Shown in pieces: positions 13,092-48,061 of a DNA stretch of 64,000 bases. The stretch is from Spirochaetales bacterium. Its GTDB lineage: Bacteria; Spirochaetota; Spirochaetia; Treponematales; Treponemataceae. The notes beneath the pieces are model-generated. The model was not told where the DNA came from and searched no databases. It was given only the letters and a program-made list of their open reading frames with translations. Position numbers and translations under genes: made by a program. The stretch covers positions 1-64,000 of the forward strand of contig JAQXNX010000033.1 in the NCBI GenBank assembly GCA_029098225.1. The letters are read 5' to 3'. The stretch's first letter is position 1. Every line of letters begins with the position of its first letter.

Positions 13092-15044
13092 ATGTCAAAA
13101 CAGATGATTATGGGAAATCAGGCAATTGCTCTTGGAGCATTAAAGGCCGGTGTAAACCTTGTTGCAGGTTATCCTGGAACTCCTTCCAGCGAAATAATAG
13201 AGTTTATTTCAAAATATAATAAAAAAACAGGAACCTATGTTGAATGGTCTGTAAACGAAAAAGCTGCCGTAGAAGTTGCAGCCGGAGCAAGTTATGCAGG
13301 AAGCCGTACACTTGTTACAATGAAGCAGGTTGGACTGAACGTTGCCAGCGATCCTGTTATGTGTCTTTCTTATGTGGGAATAAAAGGCGGCATGGTAATT
13401 GTCAGTGCCGATGATCCGGGACCAATTTCAAGCCAGACAGAACAGGATACAAGAACCTTTGGTTCATATTCTAAAATTCCGGTTTTTGATCCTTCAACTC
13501 CATCAGAAGCTTATGAAATGATTCAGGAAGCCTTCGAACTTTCAGAAAAATACAATACTCCTGTAATTCTGCGACCTACAACAAGAGTAGACCATGCATA
13601 TGAATCAATGGAATTTCCAGAATTGAAAAACTGCCGCAAAAATGGAGTTTTTGAAAAAGACACACAGCGCTGGGTAATTTTTCCAAAAGCGTCTTATAAT
13701 AATCACAAAAGAATTTTCGAAAGAAATGAAAAAAATCTTCCACAGGAATTTTCAAAATCAAGATGGAATTTTGCAGGGGGAAGTCTCCCCCTCGCTTCAG
13801 CCACCGCAAATGCGGCGTCTTCCGCTACCCCTTCAAGCGGGGAAAAATTTTCTTCAGATACCCTTCCCCGCAACGCCCCGCTTTTATTTGCCGCAGGAGG
13901 AATTTCTTACTGTTATTTAATGGAAGCACTTTCAATATTGCACAAAGAAAATCCGGAAAACCGGCAGATTAATAAGGCTCAGGTTTTAAAAATCGGAACA
14001 CCTTATCCATTTCCAAATCAGCTTGCAAAAGATTTTATAACAGAAAATTTTTCTTTCTCTGCAAATGAAAGTCATACAGAAATTACAGTTTTTGAAGAGC
14101 TTGATCCTGTAATAGAAAATGCTCTTATTTATCTTTGCGGAAAAGAAAAGCTTACCTGTACCATTCATGGAAAAATTGATAAAACTGTTCCAGAAGCCGG
14201 AGAACTTTCTGTTGAAATTGTTAAAGAAATAATTCAGAAAATTGCAGGAATAAAAGCTTCTGAACCAGAAAATCTAAAGCTTCCAGAGCTTCCGGTTCGC
14301 CCTCCGGTTTTATGCGCAGGCTGTCCTCACAGAGGAGCTTTTTATGCTGTAAAGCAGGCAATGAAAGGCGAAAAAACAGTTTATTGCGGAGACATCGGCT
14401 GTTACACGCTTGGAAATGCAAAACCACTTGATATGTGCGATACCTGTCTTTGTATGGGTGCAGATATAACAATGGCCCAGGGTTTTTATCATAATGAACC
14501 GGACAGAAAATGTTTTTCTTTTATAGGAGATTCAACATTTTTTGCCTCTGGAATAACAGGTGTTGTAAATGCAGTTTATAATCAGTCACATCAGACAATC
14601 TGTATTCTTGATAATTCAACAACAGCAATGACAGGACATCAGCCTCATCCCGGAACTGGCCGAACAATGATGGGCGAAATTGTAGAAAAAATCAGCATAG
14701 AAAAAATATTAACTTCTATTGGAGTTAAGCCTGTAATTACAGTAAATCCATTTAATCAGCCAGAAGCTGTAAATGCTGTAAAAGAAGCTGTTGCAAGCGA
14801 AGGAGTTAGTGCAGTAATTTTTAAGGCACCTTGTATTGCAATAGCTTCAAAAGTCGGCTGGGAAAAGCCTCACGCATTAAAAGTAGATGAAGCAAAATGC
14901 ATTGCCTGCAGAAAATGTATTAATGAACTTGGCTGTCCTGCATTAAGCATAAGTACAGAAAACAAAAAAGTCGAAATTGATTCATCATTGTGTACAGGCT
15001 GCGGCTTATGTAAAAATGTTTGTCCTGTAAAGGCAATCAATTAA
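13092..15044 (+). CDS. iorA: indolepyruvate:ferredoxin oxidoreductase alpha subunit
   Basis: IorA, with IorB, converts aryl-2-oxoacids (from Trp, Phe, Tyr) to aryl-acetyl-CoA with reduction of ferredoxin; the reaction is reversible. The 650-residue protein has the N-terminal pyrimidine domain (GNQAIALGALKAGV, YPGTPSSE), the TPP-binding domain with CAGCPHRG and GDIGCYTLG, and two C-terminal 4Fe-4S clusters (CIACRKC...C and CTGCGLC...C). It is longer than usual because residues about 229-262 are encoded by a GC-rich palindromic insertion. It is likely leaderless. iorB follows 25 nt downstream. Confidence 0.95.
   Translation: MSKQMIMGNQAIALGALKAGVNLVAGYPGTPSSEIIEFISKYNKKTGTYVEWSVNEKAAVEVAAGASYAGSRTLVTMKQVGLNVASDPVMCLSYVGIKGGMVIVSADDPGPISSQTEQDTRTFGSYSKIPVFDPSTPSEAYEMIQEAFELSEKYNTPVILRPTTRVDHAYESMEFPELKNCRKNGVFEKDTQRWVIFPKASYNNHKRIFERNEKNLPQEFSKSRWNFAGGSLPLASATANAASSATPSSGEKFSSDTLPRNAPLLFAAGGISYCYLMEALSILHKENPENRQINKAQVLKIGTPYPFPNQLAKDFITENFSFSANESHTEITVFEELDPVIENALIYLCGKEKLTCTIHGKIDKTVPEAGELSVEIVKEIIQKIAGIKASEPENLKLPELPVRPPVLCAGCPHRGAFYAVKQAMKGEKTVYCGDIGCYTLGNAKPLDMCDTCLCMGADITMAQGFYHNEPDRKCFSFIGDSTFFASGITGVVNAVYNQSHQTICILDNSTTAMTGHQPHPGTGRTMMGEIVEKISIEKILTSIGVKPVITVNPFNQPEAVNAVKEAVASEGVSAVIFKAPCIAIASKVGWEKPHALKVDEAKCIACRKCINELGCPALSISTENKKVEIDSSLCTGCGLCKNVCPVKAIN
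13773..13881 (+). repeat. GC-rich palindromic element inserted in frame in iorA
   Basis: About 108 bp with base composition quite unlike its surroundings. It contains hairpins GGGGG-AAGTCT-CCCCC, CCGCA-AA-TGCGG and CCGCT-N8-AGCGG, and C/G runs near both ends. It encodes a Ser/Ala/Pro-rich stretch (residues about 229-262) that interrupts the linker before the conserved LLFAAGGISY strand. The frame is kept open. Confidence 0.7.
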
Positions 15045-15069: not shown

Positions 15070-15636
15070 ATGGCTAAAAATATATTGATTTGTGGAGTCG
15101 GCGGACAAGGAACAGTTCTGGCCGCTAAAGTACTTTCTCAGGCAGCAATTTCTTCCGGCGAAAAAGTCCTTTCTGCAGAAACTATTGGAATGGCCCAAAG
15201 AGGCGGTAGTGTTGTAAGCCATGTAAGAATTGGAGAAGATGTTTTTTCTCCACTAATTCCAGAACACCAGGCAGATATCATAATTGCCTTTGAAGCTGCA
15301 GAAGCTGTAAGAAATCTGGCGTACTTAAAAAAAGATGGAATGATAATTGTAAACAAGAAGGTTGTTCAGCCTGTTACTGCAAGCCTTACAGGAAAAGCTT
15401 TTTCAGAAGATGTTATGCTGGAAGCTCTCAAAAGCAGTGGGGCAAAAGTTACCTGCGTTGATACCGATAAAGCATGTGCTGAGCTTGGAAGTTCAAAAAT
15501 TGTAAATATTCTATTATTAGGCTCTGCTTGCAAAACAGGAATAATAGATTACAGTTCAGTAGAAGATGCAATTAAAAATCTTGTAAAACCAGAATTTTAT
15601 GAACTTAATCTAAAAGCCTTGCATTACGAAAACTAA
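15070..15636 (+). CDS. iorB: indolepyruvate:ferredoxin oxidoreductase beta subunit
   Basis: IorB is the small gamma-type subunit of the 2-oxoacid oxidoreductase. The 188 residues include the N-terminal GVGGQGTVLAAKVLSQAA motif, ETIGMAQRGGSVVSHVRIG, and the FEAAEAVRNL block that are typical of the family. Only 25 nt separate it from iorA and a CTGGAG site precedes the ATG, so the two form an operon. The 3' end converges on the ankyrin gene, 4 nt away, with no visible terminator. Confidence 0.95.
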   Translation: MAKNILICGVGGQGTVLAAKVLSQAAISSGEKVLSAETIGMAQRGGSVVSHVRIGEDVFSPLIPEHQADIIIAFEAAEAVRNLAYLKKDGMIIVNKKVVQPVTASLTGKAFSEDVMLEALKSSGAKVTCVDTDKACAELGSSKIVNILLLGSACKTGIIDYSSVEDAIKNLVKPEFYELNLKALHYEN

Positions 15637-47840: not shown

Positions 47841-47892
47841 ATATATATAAACGCAAAAACTATTAAAAAAAGGAAATATAATTAAAAAAAAA

Positions 47893-48030
47893 AGCACCGA
47901 AGTGCTTTTTTTTTAATTTACGCATTTTTTGCTTCGCAAAAAAGTGCTCATTATCTAAAAATAAGCACCGAAGTGCTTTTTTTTTTTAATTTACGCATTT
48001 TTTTGCTTCGCAAAAAAATGCTCATTATCT
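47893..48030. repeat. tandem duplication of a two-hairpin terminator unit
   Basis: Two copies (47893-47956 and 47964-48030; period 71). Each has AGCAC-CGAA-GTGCT with T-runs on both strands, then a second stem GCATTTTTTTGC-TTC-GCAAAAAAATGC (perfect in copy 2, one mismatch and one base shorter in copy 1), then CTCATTATCT. It lies between mutS and comF and should stop transcription in both directions. Confidence 0.85.
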
Positions 48031-48061
48031 GAATTATTTTATTATAATTTATGAGATTTTA

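Follow-up and report, generated by a model that had tools for sequence, protein, structure and literature searches.

Rickettsia palindromic elements (RPE) are repeats of about 100-150 bp that lie in frame in many unrelated genes and add tens of residues to their products, with several unrelated families per lineage (Ogata/Claverie; PMC10969869, PMC3733652), each family encoding one conserved peptide (PMC10969869). The GTAG- and CGTC-tagged REPs are also palindromic and multicopy, mostly intergenic with an intragenic minority; the classical REP is a single hairpin of 20-40 bp with a tag at one end, and different REPs have been found at about one site in Xanthomonas recB (PMC3733652). Bacterial MITEs (ERIC, NEMIS, and others) are small, non-coding, and dispersed, and can fuse in frame with ORFs (PMC10969869, PMC3733652). 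Finally, STAXI, a motif of tandem pseudoknots near antirestriction genes, is putatively structured as single-stranded DNA (Weinberg 2010, PMC2864571).

We describe here a palindromic segment inside the iorA gene of a gut Treponema whose nearest named IorA relatives include cultured Treponema bryantii strains (Table 1; the window is the whole stretch of DNA analysed, 64,000 nucleotides). The segment is very probably a copy of a non-autonomous selfish palindromic repeat which is translated with its host and tolerated as a disordered loop. Specifically, i) the host ORF scores 702.7 bits against TIGR03336 (cut-off 650.9), identifying it as IorA; ii) the GC content is 61% over the 104 bp of the element, compared to 34% in the window; iii) R1, a covariance model built from an alignment of 35 copies from this and related genomes, matches positions 13775-13878 with 67.6 bits (E 3.9e-13), its sole match in the window; iv) the element is read through in frame as the 35 residues G229-P263, GGSLPLASATANAASSATPSSGEKFSSDTLPRNAP; and v) in an AlphaFold prediction for IorA (41 homologues; mean pLDDT 81.7), residues 233-257 fall below pLDDT 50 and form a loop that joins strand 226-230 to strand 265-269, the inserted loop itself being at pLDDT 37-47. 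A sequence-only reading of this locus had placed a GC-rich, hairpin-forming palindromic element in frame within iorA at 13773-13881, and all of this is borne out; comparison with other copies sets the core ends slightly further in, from 13776 (GGGGG) to 13879 (GCCCC). The same reading put the addition at some 34 residues, which is right for the element proper; the compared linker stretch is 50 residues long here, a net gain of about 19-29 over uninserted linkers, which have 21-31. As that reading also implied, the segment is not a feature of most IorA proteins: the compared stretch is short (21-34 residues) in about half of 74 distinct Treponema sequences and in nearly all of the non-spirochaete ones. 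Four loci from relatives (L062, L070, L077, and L080) carry further copies just past the iorA stop codon, in the opposite orientation.

Table 1. Features of the iorA locus, other genes holding in-frame copies, and plasmid leader loci.
Feature	Position	Strand	Basis or remark
iorA, indolepyruvate ferredoxin oxidoreductase alpha subunit	13092..15044	+	TIGR03336; ORF 650 aa; element = residues 229-263
Three-hairpin palindromic element, 104-bp core GGGGG...CGCCCC	13776..13879	+	R1 match, own-genome BLAST family, copy-derived boundaries
Hairpin 1, GGGGGAAGTCTCCCCC	13776..13791	+	R1 helix 1
Hairpin 2 with variable loop, CGCTTCAGCCACCGCAAATGCGGCGTCTTCCGCTA	13793..13827	+	R1 helices 2-3
Hairpin 3, GCGGGG...CCCCGC, extended loop with TTTTCTTCAG	13837..13871	+	R1 helix 5; loop comparison
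Probable iorB, uninterrupted partner gene 3' of iorA	15070..15636	+	ORF list; name inferred from position and sequence
In-frame hosts iorA, gltB (two sites), asnB, purF, carB, mnmE		both orientations among copies	PDB or family matches
Further in-frame hosts hsdS, ABC transporter, GlcNAc/cellobiose epimerase			PDB or family matches
Further in-frame host, putative radical SAM gene			Weak match to YydG; name tentative
Plasmid leader loci	L296:1461-1640, L314:2501-2680, L312, L301, L315, L316, L317, L311		

The alignment underlying R1 gives the consensus AGGGGGAAGTCTCCCCCTCGCTCCAGCC-loop-GTCTTCCGCTACCCCTTCTGCGGGGACACCCCGCAACGCCC, in which three hairpins covary; copies run from about 75 to 130 bp, usually 75-105 bp, and end in GGGG...CCCC. 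The own-genome alignment was fitted to R1, a step biased towards the structure; pairing is found in 96.0% of its cells. Bases have changed on both sides of a pair in 162 cells, as against 49.4 in shuffled alignments (none of 500 as high) and 12-19 in slid controls. In the own-genome copies, helix 1 is paired in 98.8% of cells, with 3 pairs changed on both sides, and helix 3 shows covariation at all six of its pairs. The loop motif of hairpin 3, TTTTCTTCAG, recurs in the mnmE copy as TTTTTTTCTTCAG. The paired changes are nearly all from one Watson-Crick pair to another (one pair has 13 of 15 G-U cells), and hairpins that are kept as DNA, or subtypes that are copied whole, would therefore fit better than a functional RNA. 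Ahead of the core, a 5' flank consensus A-G-G is found in 67-69% of copies, which suggests either a target preference or a true 5' end lying a few bases further out.

The element is dispersed throughout its own genome. R1 finds 59 copies at E≤0.1, of which 55 remain at E<1e-3, in the 3.05-Mb draft, where the E-value calibration is rough and copies at the ends of the 33 contigs may be missed; since these lie both inside and outside genes, the second copy sought by the sequence-only reading is amply provided. Used as a BLAST query, the iorA element gives many partial matches with identity down to about 72%; a left-end pattern has 33 matches, nearly all part of complete short copies, compared to 0 for the same pattern reversed as a control. 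Most copies are intergenic, and by the gene calls often lie a few bases from a stop codon or 20-30 bases from a start. Of random 80-nt stretches drawn from the loci of the copies, 61% lie within long ORFs, as against 11 of the 59 copies; intragenic copies are thus depleted, as expected if frame-breaking insertions are purged. One copy (G000:C24:96928-97028, L211) spans a TTTCGACAAGCTCAA repeat, suggesting from its sequence that one palindromic family may be nested in another.

At least 11 copies in 10 genes are in frame, in both orientations and several reading frames; these were counted from frame-open spans flanked on either side by 45 or more residues, because gene calling had missed gltB at C4:49866, and a spurious-looking ORF (C7:9639) was omitted. 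The insert is 29 residues long in PurF, compared to 2 in the solved homologue from B. subtilis, and 36 in AsnB and 41 in CarB, compared to 5 and 6, respectively, in the solved homologues from E. coli.

Beyond this genome, the genus has the element in 64 of 79 genomes; in other spirochaete families it is sporadic, with a few copies that are weaker but were confirmed with the model. R1 also matches plasmids of Agrobacterium, Sphingopyxis, Tardibacter, Magnetospira, Haematobacter, Bradyrhizobium, Novosphingobium, and others, one acidobacterial plasmid, some IMG/VR contigs, and, in a partial match, a clade of Microviridae. The Microviridae copies, from rodent and yak faeces (L299:1202-1272, L319:613-677, and L318:119-195), consist mostly of hairpins 1 and 2, and lie inside, or at the 3' end of, a small hypothetical gene. 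On several alphaproteobacterial plasmids the element opens a conserved leader, in which it is followed by AGAGTGAGAG, a GACGGG...CCCGTC hairpin, and, where annotated, the start codon of an ArdC-like or DUF932 gene 87-89 nt downstream; in Granulicella it lies 290 nt upstream of ArdC, and other plasmid copies adjoin no ArdC-like or DUF932 gene. A search of Rfam gave no relevant match for the window element, its copies, their plasmid relatives, or the plasmid leader. Identity with an Rfam family, including radC and STAXI, both of which presumably share gene context with the plasmid copies, was rejected, as none reached threshold.

The plasmid leaders raise the question of whether the element's main role is that of a regulatory module of structured RNA or single-stranded DNA, as it would be in those leaders, with the intragenic copies a by-product of dispersal. 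The position of several copies 87-89 nt ahead of ArdC-like or DUF932 genes, the second conserved hairpin that follows, and a covariation that stands on the plasmid set alone (both sides have changed at 17 pairs, a number reached in none of 500 shuffles) all speak for such a module. We nevertheless find it rather doubtful as a primary role, since the Treponema copies are multicopy and tied to no single type of gene, the downstream part of the plasmid leader is missing from the Treponema consensus, and the overwhelmingly Watson-Crick nature of the paired changes does not favour RNA in particular.

Repeated insertion of a selfish repeat is more readily reconciled with the state of the host loops in related species. 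The IorA linker in relatives may be empty, or may hold the same element, other subtypes of it, or unrelated palindromes. Among T. bryantii strains, B25 (L086) has the full element, NK4A124 (L076) a variant element, and XBD1002 (L093) a TTCGA-type palindrome in a linker identical to that of L038. When the linker columns are left out of the tree, the insert state of IorA changes at least 10 times, and the starred branches force at least five changes of the intact-element class; the insert classes come from pattern matching and include a few errors, L043 and L035, for instance, in fact containing element sequence. Turnover is also seen at the PurF, AsnB, GltB, ABC transporter, and radical SAM loops. 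For AsnB, three relatives have an exact contiguous empty site with 31 fewer codons. Copies stand in opposite orientation at two of these loops: PurF has a forward copy in this genome but a reversed one in G076, and in the radical SAM gene a reversed copy here corresponds to forward copies in four relatives, among which hairpin-2 subtypes differ. To judge from the sequences, such pairs may possibly be in-place inversions.

The same loops also hold palindromes of other kinds. TTCGACA-, CGTC-, and CACACGGATTC-type palindromes occupy the element sites of AsnB, GltB, PurF, the ABC transporter, and IorA: the AsnB site of other species holds TTCGACARGCTCA-, CATGCTGAACTTG-, or CACACGGATTC-type palindromes, with the CACACGGATTC type at both the AsnB and the ABC transporter site in G024, while G015 has a TTCGACAAGCTCA-type insert in GltB and an unrelated palindrome, GGTTTCGATACACC..., in the PurF loop. 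The suggestion of the sequence-only reading that this genome may hold two families stands insofar as a second palindromic family, TTTCGACARGCTCAA, is present in about 17 exact copies; none of these lies within the window, and the contrast drawn there between the iorA segment and "leader elements" is thus borne out only in part. Several further repeats were seen in passing. A TCACACGGATTCG...CGAATCCGTGTGA family is in frame in two G024 genes, asnB (L241) and an ABC transporter (L249), and, on a T. saccharophilum plasmid (L300), lies next to the three-hairpin element on its downstream side; the own-genome ABC transporter gene retains CCGTGTGACAAT directly 3' of its element, perhaps a remnant of this family. 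At 47886-48033 the window contains two tandem AT-rich units about 74 bp apart, with hairpins AAGCACCGAAGTGCTT and TTTTTTGCTTCGCAAAAAA.

Could a single ancient insertion into IorA, passed on by vertical descent and then rewritten through gene conversion or inverted in place, account for this pattern? The site is common to many IorA proteins of the T. bryantii group; conversion could swap subtypes; and the hairpin-2 subtype is the same in opposite orientations at PurF and, for 2 of the 4 relatives, in the radical SAM gene, as inversion would allow. We consider such a history unlikely, however, given the at least 10 changes of state on the IorA tree and the unrelated families found at the same sites, which lie beyond the reach of within-family conversion and are not explicable by inversion either.

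Turnover bears equally on the idea that the loops are functional, the peptide or an mRNA hairpin regulating its host, perhaps as a shared regulatory tag on the many hosts (GltB, CarB, PurF, and AsnB) that are enzymes of glutamine/ammonia or amino-acid metabolism. Five of the 11 in-frame copies do lie on one contig (C4), in gltB, carB, purF, and asnB, and several relatives carry inserts at the same loops. But clustering on this contig may reflect a shared genomic neighbourhood; HsdS, MnmE, an ABC transporter, and an epimerase are hosts as well; relatives exist without an insert at the exact site; and neither peptide nor RNA sequence is conserved, because unrelated palindromes or copies in opposite orientation fill the same loops. 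We regard a regulatory tag as improbable. GC-rich hairpins inside genes recall bypassing elements, and this likeness is what speaks for removal of the insert before or during translation as a mini-intron, intein, or translational bypass, a reading we scarcely credit, since the frame is kept and free of stops in every intragenic copy examined (all of them, it is true, found through their open frames) and removal would need neither.

Returning to a selfish repeat, then, we envisage that copies insert in either orientation; that those hitting genes survive where the frame stays open and the loop tolerates 20-35 extra residues; and that the other survivors persist between genes. The IorA peptide would be made and be near neutral, lying disordered, on the predicted structure, in a loop that links two beta strands and would take no part in catalysis. 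Movement of the copies would depend on an enzyme that acts in trans on the hairpins, which may then be single-stranded DNA, and the family may have reached Treponema with the plasmid-borne leader elements, or may share ancestry with them.

As to the nature of this enzyme, no autonomous partner came to light, and mobilisation by IS200/RAYT was considered and rejected: Y1_Tnp (PF01797) is absent from the own genome, and in the genus, where it occurs in 16 of 79 genomes, it is not associated with element abundance as judged by first-look candidate counts per genome (7 of 27 element-rich and 9 of 52 element-poor genomes; Fisher p 0.39). G076, a nearly complete genome in two contigs, has many element candidates and no Y1 hit. 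No consistent target-site duplication was found in the 59 flanks or in the gene comparisons, and long inverted ends were not seen, the terminal complementarity consisting only of GGGG/CCCC, about 4-5 bp. Integron attC sites were dropped because of the three-hairpin architecture and the copies inside genes. A G4-type single-strand initiation site has been considered as a candidate, prompted by the three stem-loops and by the copies found in microviruses and on plasmids.

A broader scenario seems to us possible, if somewhat short of probable: a hitherto undescribed three-hairpin DNA module crossed phyla on conjugative plasmids and phages, proliferated in Treponema, and together with at least three unrelated families recurrently colonises the same enzyme loops, possibly in a targeted manner, while perhaps acting as folded single-stranded DNA in antirestriction-type leaders. 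The plainer reading of the shared sites is that structural tolerance, rather than targeting, brings different families to the same loops. If the broader scenario holds, palindromic insertion would be a recurrent, and possibly targeted, source of protein loops. In-frame palindromic insertion has been known mainly from Rickettsiales and scattered REP cases, and is found here on a large scale in a genus of gut spirochetes. Neighbouring species serve as natural replicates in which a given loop is empty, filled, flipped, or holds an unrelated palindrome, so that the neutrality, frequency, and mover of the insertions become testable; and the link to plasmid leaders and phages is a concrete lead to the mobilising machinery.

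How, then, does the element compare with known systems? A literature search of open sources found nothing relevant on palindromic insertions in Treponema. MITEs differ in their terminal inverted repeats of 15-30 bp and target duplication, neither of which was seen here. STAXI resembles the element as a structure near antirestriction or DNA-handling genes on mobile elements which possibly acts as single-stranded DNA, but is built of tandem pseudoknots, and the Rfam search had returned no match to it. As to the REPs, the AsnB-site insert of one relative (L239) starts with CGTC and resembles the CGTC superfamily; the three-hairpin element itself differs in having three hairpins over about 75-130 bp, an invariant CTAC with CTAC/GTAG internal only, and an own genome without Y1/RAYT. 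Closest in way of working are the Rickettsia palindromic elements, a likeness drawn from described features which does not imply membership: both are dispersed, multicopy palindromes (59 copies here) inserted in frame in unrelated protein genes. The sequence-only reading was apt in recalling RPE as regards in-frame insertion, unrelated hosts, and use of loops, but this does not extend to family membership, as the host is Treponema, of another phylum, the architecture is one of three separate hairpins with a variable loop, and several frames in both orientations are used in place of one conserved peptide. In view of its host and the lack of one conserved peptide, we have not filed the element as an RPE. 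Same-site insertion is not wholly new in view of the Xanthomonas recB precedent (PMC3733652); what is new, as far as the open literature shows, is the scale of insertion and the mixture of families at the same loops.
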